From the NCBI GenBank assembly GCA_016183005.1, contig JACPFN010000011.1, positions 62,001 through 126,000 on the forward strand: DNA of 64,000 nt. The letters run 5' to 3'. How positions within the stretch are numbered: position 1 is the stretch's first letter; every line of letters starts with the position of its first letter. Source of the DNA: Candidatus Babelota bacterium. GTDB taxonomy: Bacteria > Babelota > Babeliae > Babelales > Chromulinivoraceae. Under the pieces are notes generated by a model, which was not told the origin of the DNA, did no database searches, and saw only the letters and a list, made by a program, of their open reading frames with translations. Positions 4,526-49,798 of the stretch are shown here, in pieces. The translations under genes and the position numbers were made by a program.

Positions 4526-6244
4526 TTAAAAATTAAGTGATCCTTGAAGACCAACTGACCATAAGCTTACAGCGTTATCACCTTTAGCATTGAATTCTGC
4601 TCCAGCAATAAAACTTAAGTTAGGTGTATAATGATGTTCTTTAAATGTATAACCAAATTGACCAAATAATTTACCGGTCATTGCAGCAGCTGAAGCAGCA
4701 CCTTGTACATCAAGTGCATCTGAAAGTGATGATGGAATACGATTAGCTGCGTCAAGAGCTGAGACAACACCTTCTGGTAAGTTATCGGGTGAAAGATGTG
4801 CATCTTGAGATTTATTGATTTTTGCAAGTGGTTCGCAAAGGTTTAATGAAGTTGTTGTACCTGAACCATCTGCGCTTGAATTAACTTCACTTACTTGGCG
4901 ACCAAGAACAGCATAATCATTTAAGTTTGCAACACGTTCTTTTACGATATTACAACAATCAAATGATAAACATTCTTTAGATCTACCCCAGAACTCGCCA
5001 CCGATCATTAAATTCCAATTATTTTTATAAAAATCGAATGCTGCAGCAAATGTACCTTCAACTGCAAATTTAGATTTTACTGGAACTGTAGTAACGTTAA
5101 CTGCATTAGTTACAAATGAAGGAATGCGCCCTGAAGGGTTATCTTCTGTAGGATTTCCCGGGAAATAATGCTGAATAAGAAGATATTTTGAACCAGGACC
5201 ATTTTGCTTCAAGTCAAATGAGCGCCAGTCTGGTCTTCTGCCTGCAAAAAGATGTCCTACATCTGCTTGCATCCAAAAATCGACTCCATCAAGCATGCAG
5301 CTATCTGATTCATATACTTTATAACGCGCAGCTACTTCACCACCGACAAACCAATGTCCAGCTCTACCAAAAACCGGTTCAAATACAAATTGACCTGTTG
5401 GTACATTACCGGTAGGACAAGTTACCTTAAATCCTATGTCAACAAATCCTTTTTCTGAGCCATAAACTTTGTAACCAAGAACAGCTGTTAAATCAGCCAT
5501 ACGAATAACAGTTTGTTTACAATCTGCTATTCTACCTTGGGTAATTGCTAATACTTTATGACGAGAAGAAACTACTTCATCCCCTGAATATTGACCAGCT
5601 TGCCATGCTTGAGTTAATGTTTGATAACGAGCAGCTGGTGATGGATAAATTAACCAATAGTCATCTGATTTGACAACTGGATTGCCATCTGGAGAAGCAA
5701 CAGGCTCTTCTGTTAATTGAGACTTAATAGACATTGCACCAAGCGGAGCTTTTACACTGAAAAACAATCCCCGCTCATCTTTACGTCTTGTGAAGTACAA
5801 CATCATATCAGCACCAACGTGTTGAATTTTTGGAGAAAGCTGTATAGTACCTTGTCCAGTCACATTACCCATACCAAATTGGTACGCATCAACATTTGAT
5901 TCACCATTGTTAGTACCATAAGTCATAGTATTAGTACCTGACCAGAAAGGACGGGCACCAAGATTATTACAAGTATCACATTTTCCACCAAAATTCTGCA
6001 TATATTCTACAGCTGTAGAAAAAAAGCCTTGATAGCCTTCTTGACGATGTGATTCATTGGTAAAAAAGGTTCTTTTTTGAATAATATCACGTGAACTGTA
6101 TGCTTCAAAAGCATGTGGTTGCCAAAGATTAATACTTTGTGCGCAACAACTATTACAATCATTGCTACTATTACAATCTTTATCGCAACTTGCAAAAGAA
6201 ATAGCACTTATTAAATTTAAGGCTATAAAAAGTTTTTTATTCAT
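4526..6244 (-). CDS. Cys-rich outer-membrane beta-barrel-like protein, paralogue 1
   Basis: 572 residues. A signal peptide at about 1-19 is followed by a Cys cluster (CDKDC, then NDCNSCC, residues 20-34). Further on come a CDTC motif, the family hallmark PFWSGTNTMTYGTNNG, then RSFDLKQNGPGSKYLL, EFWGRSKECLS, LNDYAVLGRQ and CEPLAKINKSQDAHLS. The protein ends LWSVGLQGSLNF; a C-terminal Phe after alternating hydrophobics is the usual BamA targeting signal of outer-membrane barrels. Three other copies lie at 39142, 41028 and 47804. A strong AAAGGAG precedes ATG. Cysteines are unusually frequent for an outer-membrane barrel, as in chlamydial MOMP. A porin or adhesin role is inferred; no experimental family is recognised. 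Confidence 0.7.
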   Translation of the reverse strand: MNKKLFIALNLISAISFASCDKDCNSSNDCNSCCAQSINLWQPHAFEAYSSRDIIQKRTFFTNESHRQEGYQGFFSTAVEYMQNFGGKCDTCNNLGARPFWSGTNTMTYGTNNGESNVDAYQFGMGNVTGQGTIQLSPKIQHVGADMMLYFTRRKDERGLFFSVKAPLGAMSIKSQLTEEPVASPDGNPVVKSDDYWLIYPSPAARYQTLTQAWQAGQYSGDEVVSSRHKVLAITQGRIADCKQTVIRMADLTAVLGYKVYGSEKGFVDIGFKVTCPTGNVPTGQFVFEPVFGRAGHWFVGGEVAARYKVYESDSCMLDGVDFWMQADVGHLFAGRRPDWRSFDLKQNGPGSKYLLIQHYFPGNPTEDNPSGRIPSFVTNAVNVTTVPVKSKFAVEGTFAAAFDFYKNNWNLMIGGEFWGRSKECLSFDCCNIVKERVANLNDYAVLGRQVSEVNSSADGSGTTTSLNLCEPLAKINKSQDAHLSPDNLPEGVVSALDAANRIPSSLSDALDVQGAASAAAMTGKLFGQFGYTFKEHHYTPNLSFIAGAEFNAKGDNAVSLWSVGLQGSLNF

Positions 6245-9044: not shown

Positions 9045-10388
9045 TTATAACGATGATTTTTTTGTAGCCAGTGAGTAAAGATAATAAACAGGAACCATGT
9101 TTTCTAAAGTAGCTCCGTGATTAGCAAGATTAGAAAGATTTAATGGTTTAAATTTTAATATCTGATTTTGCAATGTTGTATCCTGCGTACCATAGGGATT
9201 TTCATAAATACGAACGCGGCCTTTTTCGTTACCATTTACCCAAGCTGGTTCACCAAAAGCAACTATTTTTCCCTTAGAACTTAGCGATACCGAAGAACCT
9301 GCTTGATCAGTTACATTTTCACCGCTTATTGCATTACCAACCTGAATCCAATTATTTCCATCGAATTTATAAATTCGAACACGACCTATTTCATTAGCAT
9401 TTATCCAAATAGGCTCACCAAATGCAACCATTTTGCCATTCGCACTCAGTGCTACCGAAGCCCCTGCCCGATCTGTTAAATTTTCACCGTCTATAGAATT
9501 ACCAAGTTGAATCCAATTACTCCCATCAAATCTATAAACACGAACGCGTCCTTTTTGGTTACCATTCTCCCAATAAGGCTCCCCAAAGGCAATCGTTTTT
9601 CCATCCGCACTCAACGATATCGAAAGACCCGTAAAATCACTTGCATTTTCACCATTCATTGCATCACCTATCTGAAGCCAATCGTTTCCATCAAATTTAT
9701 AAACCCGAACACGACCTTTTCCACTACCATTTTCCCAATAAGGTTCCCCAAAGGCAATCGTTTTACCATTAGCGCTCAGTGATACCGAAAAACCTGCAAA
9801 ATCAGTTATGTTTTCACCGTTTATAGAATTACCGACTTGAATCCAATTACTCCCATTAAATTTATAAACACGAACACGCCCTGTAGCAATATTCCAACCG
9901 GGTTCACCAATTGCAACGGTTTGGCCATCAGAACTTAAAGTTACGGAATTACCTGCGGAATCAAGAAGACTTTCACCATCTATTGCAAGACCAACCAGGG
10001 TCCAGTTGCTTCCATCAAATTTAAAAATTCGAACACGTCCCGTAGTATTCCAACCAGGTTCACCAACAGCAACCATTTGGCCATTAGAGCTTAAGGCTAC
10101 GGAAGTACCAGCTGAATCACCAGCAGTTTCACCATCTATAGAGCTACCGACCTGAACCCAATTGCTCCCATTAAATTTAAAAATTTCAACACGTCCTGTA
10201 ACAGTAGACCAACCAGGTTGGCCAAAGGCAACCGTTTTTCCGTCAGCACTTAATGCTACCGAAGCCCCTGCCCGATCAGTCATATTTTCACCGATCATAG
10301 CGGTAGAGCTACCAATTTCAGTCCAATCAGCGCCAAAGCAATTTGTAACAAAAAAAGCATAGATCAATATGTTATTTTTATTTTGCAT
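9045..10388 (-). CDS. Exported seven-bladed propeller protein with integrin/FG-GAP-like repeats, copy A
   Basis: The frame is open upstream to 10472, but AAGGGAG at 10394-10400 lies 5 nt before ATG 10388, and the next paralogue begins with the same MQNK, so the protein has 447 residues. A signal peptide (to about residue 20) is followed by ADWTEIG and seven repeats of about 58 residues, each built on SVALSxDGKTVAFGEPxW...GRVRIFKFDGSNW.QVG. Seven copies fit one closed beta-propeller. A C-terminal tail (FKPLNLSNLANHG ... VPVYYLYSLATK) is shared with the neighbour. Such repeats usually bind ligands or surfaces; the partner is unknown. It is a tandem paralogue of the broken gene at 10557-11952. 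Confidence 0.75.
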   Translation of the reverse strand: MQNKNNILIYAFFVTNCFGADWTEIGSSTAMIGENMTDRAGASVALSADGKTVAFGQPGWSTVTGRVEIFKFNGSNWVQVGSSIDGETAGDSAGTSVALSSNGQMVAVGEPGWNTTGRVRIFKFDGSNWTLVGLAIDGESLLDSAGNSVTLSSDGQTVAIGEPGWNIATGRVRVYKFNGSNWIQVGNSINGENITDFAGFSVSLSANGKTIAFGEPYWENGSGKGRVRVYKFDGNDWLQIGDAMNGENASDFTGLSISLSADGKTIAFGEPYWENGNQKGRVRVYRFDGSNWIQLGNSIDGENLTDRAGASVALSANGKMVAFGEPIWINANEIGRVRIYKFDGNNWIQVGNAISGENVTDQAGSSVSLSSKGKIVAFGEPAWVNGNEKGRVRIYENPYGTQDTTLQNQILKFKPLNLSNLANHGATLENMVPVYYLYSLATKKSSL

Positions 10389-10393
10389 TTTTT

Positions 10394-10400
10394 CTCCCTT
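10394..10400 (-). promoter_or_regulatory. Ribosome binding site fixing the start of propeller copy A
   Basis: AAGGGAG on the minus strand, 5 nt before ATG 10388. The paralogous gene has AAAAAGGAG at 11958-11966 with identical 5-nt spacing. Confidence 0.75.
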
Positions 10401-10436
10401 TAAAAAGGTTACCGATTTTATAACAAAGATAAAAAT

Positions 10437-10467
10437 AAAGTACCACAGAATTATCCTGTGGCACTTT
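10437..10467 (-). terminator. Intrinsic terminator after propeller copy B
   Basis: 12-bp stem, 7-nt loop. As plus-strand RNA it would contain an A-C mismatch, but as minus-strand RNA the same position is a G-U pair (AAAGTGCCACAG/CTGTGGTACTTT), followed by TATTTTTATC. The hairpin therefore works best on the minus strand, where it ends the 10557-11952 unit. Confidence 0.7.
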
Positions 10468-10556
10468 ACCAAAAAAAGGCATTAAAATCTGTTCAAAATC
10501 TCAGAGAAGAATCGAACAATTAACCATGCAAAAATTTAATTCCGCAGAACAATTTT

Positions 10557-11952
10557 TTAGCCAATAATATGAGTTAACGATCTAAATTCTCCAGATGCTT
10601 TTTGTGTAGCAACTAAGTAAAGATAATAAACCGGAATCATATTTTCTAAAGCAGCTCCAGGATTAGCAAGATCAGAAAGATTTAAAGGTTTAAAATGTAA
10701 TACGTGATTTTGTATCGCTGCTCCGTCTGAAATAGGATATTTATAAACTCTAACGCGCCCTAGATTAACAGACCAAAGAGGTTCTCCAAAGGCAACTATT
10801 CCACCATTAGAGCTTAAAGCTATAGAAACACCAGCACTATCTGCATTTTCACCGTTTATTGCACTACCAAGCTGAAGCCAATTACTTCCATCACTTTTAA
10901 AAACTCTAATGCGTCCATTGTTAGCACCATTTAGCCAACCTTTTTCACCTATGGCAACTATTGTACCATCGGAACTTAAAGCTACAGAGTCACCAACAAA
11001 ATCATTGCCGTTTTCACCGTTTATTGTGTTACCAATCAAAGTCCAACTGCTTCCATCAAATGCATAAATTCTAACGCGCCCATTATTGCCGCCGCTTAAC
11101 CAATAAGGTTCACCAACAGCAACCGTTTGACCATCGGCACTTAATGCTACCGAGTCACCCGCTAAATCACCAGTATTTGAGCCGTTTATTGCAAGACCAA
11201 CTAAAATCCAGCTGCTTCCATTGAATTTAAAAACTCGAGTGCGTCCTTTAGAAGTGTCCCAGTTAGGTTCACCAATAGCAACCGTTTGACCATCAGAATT
11301 TAATGCTACGGAAAAACCGGTTGTATCACCAACATTTTCACCGTTTATAGCAAGACCAACCAGGGTCCAGCTGCTTCCATCAAATTTAAAAATTCGAACA
11401 CGTCCCGTAGCGGTAGACCAAGCAGATTCACCAATAGCAACCGTTTGACCATCAGAACTTAATGCTACGGAAGTACCAGCTGAATCACCAGCATTTTCAC
11501 CATCTATTGCAAGACCAACCAGGGTCCAGTTGCTTCCATCAAATTTAAAAATTCGAACACGTCCTTTAGACGAAGACCAAAGATTTTCTCCAATAGCAAC
11601 TGTTTGACCATCAGAGCTAAGTGCTACGGAAGTACCAGCTGAATCACCAGCATTTTCACCATCTATAGAGCTACCGACCTGAACCCAATTACTTCCATCA
11701 AATTTATAAATTTCAACACGTCCTGTTACTTCCATCAAATTTATAAATTTCAACACGTCCTGTAACAGTAGACCAAAACGGTTGGCCAAAAGCAACCGTT
11801 TTCCCGTCAGCACTTAATGCTACCGACCTACCAGCATCGCCAGGTGCCGCATCACCAGTTAAAGAATTAGGATCGCCAATTTCAGTCCAATCAGCACCAA
11901 AGCAACTTGTAACAAGAAAAGCGCTGATTAATATATATTTTTTATTTTGCAT
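10557..11952 (-). pseudogene. Exported seven-bladed propeller protein, copy B, frameshifted by a 37-bp duplication
   Basis: Translation starts at ATG 11952 (MQNKKYILISAFLVTSCFGADW), with AAAAAGGAG 5 nt upstream. It reads through the first propeller repeat and stops at about 79 residues. The remaining six repeats and the shared C-terminal tail continue in another frame to 10557. The shift lies exactly at a tandem duplication of 37 bp (11690-11726 and 11727-11763). Removing one copy leaves 1359 nt, or 452 residues, in one frame with seven blades like copy A. As sequenced, only the signal peptide and blade 1 can be made. It may be a recent mutation, a switchable contingency locus or an assembly error. 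Confidence 0.85.
11690..11763. repeat. Perfect 37-bp tandem duplication
   Basis: Two abutting identical copies, 11690-11726 and 11727-11763, each beginning TACTTCCATCAAATTTATAA and ending CAACACGTCCTGT on the plus strand. 37 is not a multiple of three, so it causes the frameshift in propeller copy B. Confidence 0.97.
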
Positions 11953-34186: not shown

Positions 34187-35674
34187 TTACTTATCATCTA
34201 AAAACTTGGCAAGGTATGCATAAAGCTGCTTTTTATTCATAACCTTTGTATTAATATCTTGAATCTTACCATCCTTAAAGACCAATAATGATGGCAACTT
34301 AGATATTCGAATGTCATAATCAAGGGCAAGGTCGCGATAAATTGTCTTTTTAACCAACGTATAATTCGCTTTTAATATCTTAACCCTGTCATCTAATTTA
34401 TGTGCAACAGCCTCAAGATGTGGAAGCATTTGGATGCAACAAGGACAGTCCAATGAATAAAAATCAAGCGCTACTACCCCCTTAGCCTTCATAATCAAAT
34501 CCTCAAGCTCTTTGGTAGTAGTAATTTCTTGCAACTCTTTTTTAACATCTGAAAAATGCTCAAAGAAATTTTTATCCAATTCAGCACCAATTTCTGAATT
34601 AAATCCTATCTCGTATAAAAATGAAGTGGTATCTAATGCAGCTTTAGCACCTTCACCAGCAGCTACAATTGCTTGTCGATAGTAAGGATCCTGAATCTCA
34701 CCAGCTGCAAAAACACCTGGTACAGATGCTTCCTGAGTTCGATCCTTCATAATCAAGTAACCATGCTTATCAAGCGCAATGCCTTCGCTTAAAATTTTAT
34801 TATTAGGATCATGCCCAACAGCCAAAAACACTCCATCCATAGCTACTTTCTGAGTGCTTTCCTTCTCGTTGTCATACACATCAATAGCTGTTACATGCTC
34901 CCCATCGCCATAAATTCTAGTAACCTCTTTATGATATTCAATAGACGCATTTGGATAACTCTCTATTTTTTTCAAACCGGCCGCTGCAGCTTTCATGTGT
35001 CCCTTACGAACAAGAACTTTGACACTTTTGACATACGGAGAAAGCTCAAAAACCATCTCAACCGCGCTATCACCGCCACCAACAATAACAATATCCTTAT
35101 CTTTAAAAAATCGTGCATCACAAACAGCACAAGTGGTCACACCCTTACCCCAATACTCCTGCTCACCGGGAACATTAAGCCTTCTAGGGGTTGCACCAGT
35201 CGCCAAAATAATAGAAAGTGCCTTAAATTCACGCCCTTCCTCTGTTTTTATGTTAAATGGCCAAGAGGTAAAATCAACACTGGTAACAACATCATGAATC
35301 ATAACTGAACCAAATGACTGCGCCTGTTTTTTCATATCATTCATAAGCTCTGGACCAAGGACCTTTTCACGGCCTGGCCAATTTTCAACATAGGTCGTTT
35401 GAGTTAATTGTCCAAGAGGCATAGCTCCTGCAAAAATAAATGCTTTCATCCCCGCTCTGGCAAGATATAAAGCGGCACTTAGCCCAGCAGGGCCAGATCC
35501 TATAATAACAACGGGGACAACATTCTCCTGCTTAACTGCTCTTTCTAATGAATAATCAAGATGATTCAAAGATAATTTTCTCTCAGACTTTCCCACCCTT
35601 AAAAGGGGATTATAACACGCAAATAGAAACGATATTGGAATAGTAATGAGAAAAAATTTAGTAATTTGCTGCAT
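34187..35674 (-). CDS. Exported thioredoxin reductase fused to a thioredoxin domain
   Basis: 495 residues. A leader at 1-20 (KFFLITIPISFLFAC) could be a lipoprotein signal with Cys20, although Phe at -2 is atypical. Thioredoxin reductase domain at about 52-360: FAD motif GSGPAG (59-64), redox pair CAVC (182-185), NAD(P)H motif GGGDSA (199-204) and FAAGEIQD. Thioredoxin-like domain at about 385-495: active site C410-P-C-C413 instead of CGPC, in FYSLDCPCCIQMLPHLE, followed by LPSLLVFKDG. Reductase-thioredoxin fusions exist in some bacteria; a leader on one is unusual because NADPH is cytosolic. No Met, GTG or TTG start lies between the leader and the FAD motif. It may sit in the membrane or the envelope. 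Confidence 0.85.
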   Translation of the reverse strand: MQQITKFFLITIPISFLFACYNPLLRVGKSERKLSLNHLDYSLERAVKQENVVPVVIIGSGPAGLSAALYLARAGMKAFIFAGAMPLGQLTQTTYVENWPGREKVLGPELMNDMKKQAQSFGSVMIHDVVTSVDFTSWPFNIKTEEGREFKALSIILATGATPRRLNVPGEQEYWGKGVTTCAVCDARFFKDKDIVIVGGGDSAVEMVFELSPYVKSVKVLVRKGHMKAAAAGLKKIESYPNASIEYHKEVTRIYGDGEHVTAIDVYDNEKESTQKVAMDGVFLAVGHDPNNKILSEGIALDKHGYLIMKDRTQEASVPGVFAAGEIQDPYYRQAIVAAGEGAKAALDTTSFLYEIGFNSEIGAELDKNFFEHFSDVKKELQEITTTKELEDLIMKAKGVVALDFYSLDCPCCIQMLPHLEAVAHKLDDRVKILKANYTLVKKTIYRDLALDYDIRISKLPSLLVFKDGKIQDINTKVMNKKQLYAYLAKFLDDK

Positions 35675-47803: not shown

Positions 47804-49663
47804 CTAAAAATTAAGTGACCCCTGAAGCCCTACACTCCACAATTGAACTGCATTATTCGTAGTATTAGTAAATTCTGCACCAGCAACTAAGGCAACCGAT
47901 GGAGCATAATTACAATCTTTCCAATTATAGCCAAAGTGAGTAAATATTTTTCCTGTAAATACACTTGATACTTCTGCGCCACAGATATCAAGAGCTTCAT
48001 CAAGATTTGATGGAATTCTATTTTCAGAAAGACGTGCATCCTTAACACCTTCTGGAAGCGTAGTTGGAGTTGACACTGTTGGATATGAACCAGAAAGAAG
48101 CGCTGAATCTTGTGATTTACCAATTTGCGCTAATGGTTCACAAAGGTAGGTGAAAACATCTAATTCAGGACTTTGCTTATTAGCTATAGTTGTATTACCT
48201 GGTACATAATATGAACTTAGCTGACGACCAAGTACAGCAAAATTATTTAAATCCAATGATTGATTATGAACAGCAGATGCCATATCAATACTTAATTTCT
48301 CACGAGATCTACCCCAAAACTCGCCACCCAACGCAAAATTCCAGTTATCCCAAGCAAAATCTACCATGACAGCTACCGCACCTTCAACTGCAAAATTAGC
48401 AAGCACCGGAAGTGTTGTATAATTAATTGCTATGTCTAAATACTGTGCTTCGTATACTTGAGCATTTGGATTTACTGTTCCATTATCGTTAATTGCTGGA
48501 TTTGGAGATAAATTAGCATATGTTGCTCTATAATCTTGAACTAAAAGATATTTAGAACCAGGTCCATTTTTCTTCAAGTCAAAAGAACGCATACTTGGTG
48601 TTCTTCCATGCATCAAATGCTCTAATTCGCCCTGCAAGGATACTGTTATACGACGATTACATGCTTCATTTTCCCAAACTTGATATAATGCTGAAACTTC
48701 GCCACCAACGCCCCATAAACCAGCCCTACCATATATTGGTTCAAGCATATATAAAGCTAATGGTCTATTACCCGTTGGAAATGAAACCTTAAAACCTAAT
48801 CCTGCAAAACCCTTCTCATCTGCATAGACATTATAACCCAATGTTGCAGCAATATCCGCAAGACGAATAATAGCTAACGAATCTGGAGCTACACGTCCAT
48901 AAGATAGTCCAAACATTTTTCCATAAATTGCTGATCCAGCAAGTTCATCACTACAACCACCAAGACCACCAAAGAAAACATCTGATATAGTTTGATAGCG
49001 ACGTGCAGGAACTGGATATTCTAAAAACTGATAATCAAATTCTGATCCACCACCTGATCCAACCTGTGAAAAGCTTAAATTATTTTCCGGTTGAATAGAT
49101 TTAACTTCTGTTAATCGTGGAGTAACTCTCATGCCACCCATTGGAGCATGCAATCTAAAATACATCCCACGCTCATCAGATTTTTGAACCCAATACACCA
49201 TCATATCAGTACCAATGCTTTGAATTCGCGGATTAAGCTGAATAATGCCACCAATACCATTTTCATCTGTTTGAATATTACCCAAACCTAACTGATAAGC
49301 ATCAAGCTGTGCTCTACCGTCATTATTACCAATAGTGAGCTGATTAGTGCCAGACCAAAATGGCATAGAACCTAAATTCTTGCAACTGTTACATTTTCCA
49401 TCAAAATTTTGCATATATTCTGTAACAAATGATACATCCAATTTTCCATCACGTTTTTCACTTGGATGTGTATGTTTCATTTGAAAAAGATCATGATATT
49501 GATAAGAAGAAAATGAACGAGGGTACCAAAAGTTTTTTGAAATAGAACAATCTGTATCACATTTTTTATTGCAACTTGACTCGCAATCAGCACTTTCAGC
49601 AAGTAAATTAATTACCCAAAAACTGGTCAATATAAGATATAATCCTTTACCTTTAAAATTCAT
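47804..49663 (-). CDS. Cys-rich outer-membrane beta-barrel-like protein, paralogue 4
   Basis: The frame is open to 49798, but AAAGGGA 8 nt before ATG 49663 (MNFKGKGLYL) and the signal peptide there fix the start at 619 residues. After the leader comes a Cys cluster (ADCESSCNKKCDTDCS), then CNSC, LGSMPFWSGTNQLTIG, RSFDLKKNGPGSKYLLVQ, EFWGRSREKLSIDM, LNNFAVLGRQLSSYY, CEPLAQIGKSQDSA, ALDICGAEVSSVFTGKIF and the end LWSVGLQGSLNF, which is nearly identical to paralogue 1. Downstream lies the cyclase relic. Confidence 0.7.
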   Translation of the reverse strand: MNFKGKGLYLILTSFWVINLLAESADCESSCNKKCDTDCSISKNFWYPRSFSSYQYHDLFQMKHTHPSEKRDGKLDVSFVTEYMQNFDGKCNSCKNLGSMPFWSGTNQLTIGNNDGRAQLDAYQLGLGNIQTDENGIGGIIQLNPRIQSIGTDMMVYWVQKSDERGMYFRLHAPMGGMRVTPRLTEVKSIQPENNLSFSQVGSGGGSEFDYQFLEYPVPARRYQTISDVFFGGLGGCSDELAGSAIYGKMFGLSYGRVAPDSLAIIRLADIAATLGYNVYADEKGFAGLGFKVSFPTGNRPLALYMLEPIYGRAGLWGVGGEVSALYQVWENEACNRRITVSLQGELEHLMHGRTPSMRSFDLKKNGPGSKYLLVQDYRATYANLSPNPAINDNGTVNPNAQVYEAQYLDIAINYTTLPVLANFAVEGAVAVMVDFAWDNWNFALGGEFWGRSREKLSIDMASAVHNQSLDLNNFAVLGRQLSSYYVPGNTTIANKQSPELDVFTYLCEPLAQIGKSQDSALLSGSYPTVSTPTTLPEGVKDARLSENRIPSNLDEALDICGAEVSSVFTGKIFTHFGYNWKDCNYAPSVALVAGAEFTNTTNNAVQLWSVGLQGSLNF

Positions 49664-49798
49664 TAGCAATATCCCTTTTTTAGAATAAAAGTATATAATA
49701 TTTTTTTTAGTACTAACATGAATAGATTTTATATGTAAATAAATTAATAAAAAATTTAATTTATTTATATATAAAATTATAATCTTTATAAAACTCAA

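Follow-up and report, generated by a model that had tools for sequence, protein, structure and literature searches.

The window, by which we mean the whole stretch of 64,000 nucleotides analysed here, encodes four members of a family of predicted outer-membrane β-barrels that a family profile finds in every genome searched of the phylum Dependentiae, and that is rich in cysteine in many lineages. As judged from alignments and models, cysteines are scarce in the membrane strands of these proteins and concentrated in the N-terminal segment, the loops and the turns, a placement that favours disulfide-stabilised surfaces. Our preferred reading, which we hold at a probability of about 0.45, is that disulfides staple the barrel surfaces and that, in the Cys-rich lineages, some of them also cross-link barrels or small partner proteins, stiffening the coat. 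Very few isolates exist of the Dependentiae, widespread bacteria that live inside protists, and little is known of their envelope; a surface-barrel family occurring in every genome searched offers a handle on attachment, durability and uptake.

Barrel genes of the window

Copy 1 (positions 4526..6244, (-) strand), defined by its open reading frame and an AlphaFold2 model, has 572 amino acids and 14 Cys, or 2.45% Cys versus 1.23% (237 of 19251 residues) for the 43 window ORFs taken. Five of these cysteines form an N-terminal cluster (6143..6187, (-); residues 20-34, CDKDCNSSNDCNSCC) that by eye lies directly past the signal peptide; a 16-residue cluster as dense as this one appeared, anywhere in the protein, in 17 of 5000 shuffles of copy 1. 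A CxxC (5969..5980, (-); residues 89-92, C89/C92), which the model places in the loop joining strands 1 and 2, is followed by the FWSGTN hallmark (5930..5947, (-); residues 100-105), whose W101 and N105 are invariant among 18 close homologues.

The other copies differ in these features. Copy 2 (39142..40986, (-); 614 aa, 12 Cys) has the CxxC at residues 83/86 and no N-terminal cluster, and copy 3 (41028..42842, (-); 604 aa, 7 Cys) has neither; the densities seen in copies 2 and 3 were equalled in 4790 and 5000 of 5000 shuffles, respectively. The ORF listed for copy 4 starts at a TTG at 49798, and its residues are numbered here from the likely ATG at 49663 (47804..49663, (-); 619 aa, 11 Cys); it carries the CxxC at residues 91/94 and a cluster of 4 Cys (49547..49585, (-); residues 27-39, CESSCNKKCDTDC), whose density was equalled in 76 of 5000 shuffles. 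An earlier note on this DNA had described clusters of 5-6 Cys after the signal peptide in copies 1 and 4, which is accurate for the five of copy 1 and overstated for copy 4, because the latter holds only four; its observation that copies 1, 2 and 4 share a CxxC ahead of FWSGTN was confirmed. Two other contigs of the source genome add to these, one with a fifth copy of full length and one with a distant match that is only partial; with 7-15 Cys per copy, this genome is a moderate case within the family. A search of the window for Shine-Dalgarno patterns gave no matches.

Fold and outer-membrane placement

AlphaFold2 models of copy 1 (pLDDT 83.7, pTM 0.83) and copy 4 (pLDDT 82.2, pTM 0.81), each from 22 aligned sequences, both contain 12 membrane-length strands, counted manually in the DSSP listing, and in both the final strand ends at a Phe. 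A C-terminal aromatic residue is a signal for the BAM machinery, and the column of F572 holds Phe in 84% of 124 aligned rows, with one further residue in some of them. By eye, both proteins start with a signal peptide, their hydrophobic N-termini leading into SFA-SC (copy 1) and ESA-DC (copy 4).

The top match among solved folds was the COG4313 channel (PDB 4rl8; Z 20.9, 2.8 Å, 254 residues), with FapF (PDB 5o65; Z 20.2, 2.8 Å, 254 residues) and the autotransporter barrel EspP (Z 20.2, 3.2 Å, 259 residues) next to it, so that on the models COG4313, FapF and autotransporter barrels are effectively tied. The likeness to COG4313 (Phenol_MetA_deg) lies in the 12-strand barrel and the N-terminal segment before strand 1, but the Dependentiae barrels have longer loops, many of them Cys-rich, and do not reach the cut-off of PF13557, which none of 13 barrel proteins passed (best single protein 15.1 bits for a cut-off of 22, E 0.025). 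FapF, an amyloid secretion channel, resembles them in its barrel fold. When PDB sequences were searched with a profile, neither FapF nor any other entry matched up to E 1, and no Pfam or NCBIfam family exceeded its cut-off for the barrels scanned (13 proteins, and six in a separate scan). Kinship with FadL, autotransporters or OmpG is not claimed, though such folds also align.

Structure prediction, which the earlier note had proposed as a check, agrees with its outer-membrane placement in the two 12-strand models, the C-terminal Phe and the matches to outer-membrane-barrel folds. We are close to certain that the family consists of 12-strand outer-membrane barrels, which are probably channels. 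In the usual topology of such proteins both termini are periplasmic and the short turns face inside, and on this basis the loops were here assigned as facing outward.

Distribution and cysteine content in Dependentiae

A search with a single protein found matches in 83 of the 85 genomes of the order, and a profile made from 35 diverse members matched all 101 genomes searched of the phylum, with 2-19 matches per genome, some of which may be fragments of one gene. For composition we used 126 members from 43 genomes, only six of these members being from the window's own genome or modelled (two models in total); this set is non-random and under-represents distant members, because its loci were mostly the best matches of the single-protein search. 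Cys makes up 2.86% of these proteins versus 1.38% of 722 other ORFs and 1.28% of the 324 other ORFs with a signal-peptide-like start. The count of Cys-rich homologues elsewhere in Dependentiae that the earlier note had suggested came to 65 of the 126 sampled members with at least 15 Cys, and such members occur in 23 of the 43 genomes. The maximum is 54 Cys in one member, or 55 over its whole open frame; a barrel with CGTS/CGTY tandem repeats ahead of strand 2 (L065:7577-9619) has 55 Cys in its open frame.

The enrichment is not general, and in several sampled genomes the family lies below the other ORFs. The window's genus is moderately rich (1.8-2.1% Cys), its sister genus g2 (three genomes) has 0-7 Cys per copy (0.37-0.63%), and low values (0-0.8%) were seen as well in G019, G026, G037, G045 and G073. 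Cultured isolates include rich and poor cases: the genome taken as Babela massiliensis (G053) has two members with a Cys-rich N-terminus and a barrel, carrying 32 and 40 Cys, that taken as strain Noda2021 (G082) has 15-30 Cys in four members, and that taken as Chromulinavorax destructans (G004, genus g2) has 0-5 Cys in three. On a FastTree tree of 123 rows, computed without bootstrap and without the Cys columns, a minimum of 18 changes is needed for the state of 15 or more Cys. Records titled Epsilonproteobacteria bacterium SP22 (loci L093, L097, L098, L100 and L101) carry Dependentiae barrels, and the title is probably a mislabel.

Position of the cysteines

Segments were assigned by column from the copy 1 model over 122 rows, after dropping one partial duplicate, and inserted loops are approximate because of this procedure. 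In 95 rows from other GTDB families, the Cys share is 0.84% in strands, 3.85% in loops, 7.76% in turns and 5.35% in the N-terminus, and the 135 Cys found in strands compare with an average of 509, and never fewer than 466, when Cys were placed at random 300 times. The 18 rows of the window's genus plus G005 give 0.89, 1.71, 2.81 and 5.95%, respectively, with 27 strand Cys observed versus 58 (minimum 40) at random. When restricted to columns present in copy 1, strands remain lowest in both of these Cys-bearing sets. In the nine g2 rows avoidance is absent, with 13 Cys in strands versus 7.8 at random. Compositional drift without function would agree with the repeated changes of the Cys-rich state on the tree, but the other ORFs of the same genomes average just 1.38% Cys and the strand scarcity is strong, even if a constraint on strands alone could produce part of it; we consider drift very improbable.

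Co-occurrence is greater between Cys columns that share a face of the barrel than between those on opposite faces: the mean difference is 0.067, a value that 13 of 2000 permutations of segment labels attained. Of the 80 strong pairs, 60 are same-face pairs, a number that 84 of 2000 permutations attained, and the top two pairs link loop 1 with loop 6 and loop 5 with loop 6, loops that adjoin in the barrel. These alignments suggest a mild covariation within one face, over 123 rows that, like those of the tree, include one partial duplicate, and shared ancestry can inflate such values. Across segments, pairing in the window's family is strongest between the N-terminus and loop 1, which counts against the preferred reading since these would lie on opposite faces if the N-terminus is periplasmic.

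The disulfides might instead be intramolecular staples only, firming the surface loops and the N-terminal domain for host binding or protease resistance, without envelope cross-links. The location of the cysteines in loops and the covariation of the neighbouring pairs L1-L6 and L5-L6 agree with this, and the long variable loops of many copies would fit a role in surface interaction. Babela massiliensis, in addition, was reported to have seven large secreted proteins that combine a β-barrel with a Cys-rich N-terminal domain, an architecture that Pagnier et al. (2015, PMC4378268), in the part of the paper available, likened to LDL receptors, proposing an interaction with the host. Against staples alone, members with an odd number of Cys are no rarer than those with an even number (63 versus 45 of the 108 members with six or more Cys, with the mature start crudely fixed at residue 23), so that there is no excess of even counts, and the small Cys-rich exported proteins described below, encoded beside a barrel in 5 of 43 genomes, suggest that partners exist. 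Staples alone are a credible account to which we give less than even odds.

Spacings CxxC and CxxxC are in excess, with 186 and 286 occurrences versus 73 and 71 expected. Together with the scarcity of known oxidases (below), this could point to Cys clusters that bind metal or haem; however, simple repeats, for example CGTSCGTYC in one member, account for some of the surplus of CxxxC, and few Cys sites are common to different families, and we regard such binding as quite improbable.

Conservation of the cysteines among homologues, which the earlier note had made a test of its proposal, holds at short range and fails at long range. C30 is nearly invariant among the 18 close homologues, and within the window's GTDB family, whose alignment of 34 rows includes some duplicates and fragments, Cys occupies position 89 in 16 of 21, position 92 in 13 of 28 and position 470 in 24 of 32 rows with a residue. 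In other families, positions 89 and 92 fall in gaps (with 0 and 1 residues, none of them Cys) and position 470 is mostly Thr or Ser (Cys in 0 of 100), whereas these families have different Cys columns of their own. In these alignments, Cys-richness recurs across families, and its positions do not.

The cysteines of the N-terminal segment could also make the barrel a redox-gated channel, opening or closing the pore with the redox state. The segment may occlude the lumen as in the COG4313 protein Pput2725, a 12-strand barrel with its N-terminal segment inside (PMC4493636, in the part available), the Cys clusters of copies 1 and 4 precede the modelled N-terminal helix, and redox gating was suggested for MOMP in the portion of the chlamydial literature at hand. 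But the stretch of copy 1 in which the cluster lies, residues 13-34, has pLDDT <50, so that its placement is not fixed, other families hold most of their Cys in loops, and copies 2 and 3 are without a cluster; gating seems unlikely to us.

A small Cys-rich exported protein encoded beside barrels

Five genomes, G018, G036, G044 and G056 of one GTDB family and G008 of another, encode a small exported protein of 87-128 aa with 9-14 Cys (L077:4248-4517, L019:3331-3609, L016:3101-3409, L015:3145-3408 and L076:4625-5008). Its gene is on the same strand as a barrel gene and 236-784 bases downstream of it, and the upstream barrels are themselves low in Cys (6-10). Seven Cys are invariant in all five small proteins, that of G044 being aligned without its last residues, and no Pfam family exceeded its cut-off in the four of them that were scanned. 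The arrangement recalls the layout of chlamydial MOMP and OmcA, and homology is not claimed. Sequence reaching 900 bases or more downstream of some member is available in each of the 43 genomes that have family loci; in 38 of these no small partner was seen, which counts against the preferred reading. A search over the loci compared found no relative of the small protein in the window. Two further Cys-rich exported proteins, with 16 mature Cys each (L141:14381-14767 and L135:5126-5653), have no family barrel on the same stretch and no relatives among the loci compared.

Redox machinery

Profile searches over cut-off found DsbA in 1 of 85 genomes (8 of 14 controls), DsbB in none (6 of 14 controls), and, with the controls matched in each case, Thioredoxin_4 in 2, VKOR in 15 and DsbD in 72 of 85. 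Across 43 genomes, Cys content was associated neither with VKOR nor with DsbD presence (p 0.43 and 0.54). Oxidation driven by DsbA, DsbB or VKOR is unsupported by these counts and by the missing link of VKOR to Cys content. To judge from gene content, the reducing arm is present and the usual oxidising arm mostly missing; because of the latter, oxygen or another oxidase would have to form the bonds.

The source genome has DsbD and a cytosolic-type thioredoxin, and the window encodes a fusion of a thioredoxin-reductase-like domain with a thioredoxin (CPCC) that carries a hydrophobic N-terminal segment and a lipobox-like LFAC (34187..35674, (-)), and which may be a redox partner of the barrels. 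Among the matches listed, those extending into both domains were counted by eye in at least 63 of 85 genomes. Of 29 fusion loci, eight gave no intact frame under the filter used, and all 21 intact frames have a hydrophobic N-terminus, ten being export-like, five cytoplasmic and six tied by a charge rule. In the window's GTDB family a lipobox-like pattern occurs in 5 of 7 loci (L109-L115).

A proposed disulfide-stabilised coat and its relation to known systems

In the preferred reading, stapling combined with some cross-linking, the cysteines would pair into disulfides outside the host cell, holding the N-terminal segment and the loops in place; where lineages are Cys-rich, some of these disulfides would probably also tie neighbouring barrels or the small Cys-rich exported proteins into a stiffened coat. 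Once the bacterium is inside the host, the bonds would be reduced, either by the reducing cytoplasm or through the bacterial DsbD/thioredoxin route, and the coat would loosen. That at least some disulfides form on the exposed faces in Cys-rich lineages is likely, and between intermolecular cross-links and intramolecular staples the odds are near even. The preferred reading draws support from the Cys content (2.86% versus 1.38%), the strand avoidance, the same-face covariation, the small partner, and DsbD in 72 of 85 genomes. The matter is testable now because cultured isolates span both conditions, the Cys-rich Babela and Noda2021 and the Cys-poor Chromulinavorax.

The closest parallel would be the chlamydial outer membrane complex, whose disulfides cross-link the extracellular form and are reduced within the host. 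That complex is described as cross-linked and accompanied by a DsbA/DsbB pair, its MOMP having 7-10 Cys (PMC6752827 and PMC3561449, in the parts available). Both have a Cys-rich barrel as main surface family, both combine intracellular life with an extracellular form, and some Dependentiae lineages also have small Cys-rich exported proteins. In contrast to chlamydiae, the DsbA/DsbB pair is nearly absent from Dependentiae, Cys counts in some lineages are far higher than in MOMP, and a peptidoglycan pathway is reported in C. destructans. No homology with the chlamydial envelope was detected: none of 13 barrel proteins gave a PF01308 (MOMP) match at E <= 1. Whole-genome searches with PF01308 and with PF03504 (OmcB) matched 0 of 85 genomes, and no control genome either. 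A close parallel is further opposed by VKOR, which occurs in just 15 of 85 genomes and shows no association with Cys content, by Cys positions that are not conserved over the phylum, and by the lack of an excess of even counts. Nor do the g2 genomes fit a MOMP-like Cys-rich barrel: they are Cys-poor, yet C. destructans has, in the partial literature available, durable infectious cells. A chlamydia-like disulfide-linked envelope fits the Cys placement and stands as a candidate only; were the coat cross-linked, it would be a second, convergent envelope of this type, in a phylum with the usual oxidases mostly missing.

A more specific scheme would be a redox armour independent of that of chlamydiae, in which the barrel is universal and the Cys-rich module lies either in the barrel itself (N-terminus and loops, 20-50 Cys) or in a separate small exported protein beside a Cys-poor barrel, being oxidised outside the host without DsbA/DsbB, and undone by DsbD and the membrane-anchored or exported thioredoxin-reductase/thioredoxin fusion. 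Were the fusion surface-exposed in lineages with a lipobox, host NADPH would be the entry signal in this scheme. Taken as a whole, we consider the scheme unlikely.

The seven-protein set of B. massiliensis very probably belongs to the same family as the Dependentiae barrels, and the subject is already partly in print for that species. In the available part of PMC4378268, the set occupies one sentence on one species, with no phylum-wide distribution, topology or redox context; new here are the phylum-wide picture and the small Cys-rich exported protein. Outside that paper, a literature search that did not cover subscription papers and preprints found no report of Cys-rich Dependentiae barrels, and the part of PMC12172432 available held none of the envelope terms sought.

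Other features of the window

The window also encodes a predicted lipoprotein of 136 aa (44970-45380, (+)) that has no Pfam family and whose mature end carries CDWCGCVKKC and then EPKPFEPK repeats. Three tandem paralogues (59228-63990, (-)), 38-50% identical, are Cys-poor and have by eye signal-peptide-like starts, and two adjoining ORFs (9045-11813, (-)), 63% identical, have 2 and 0 Cys.
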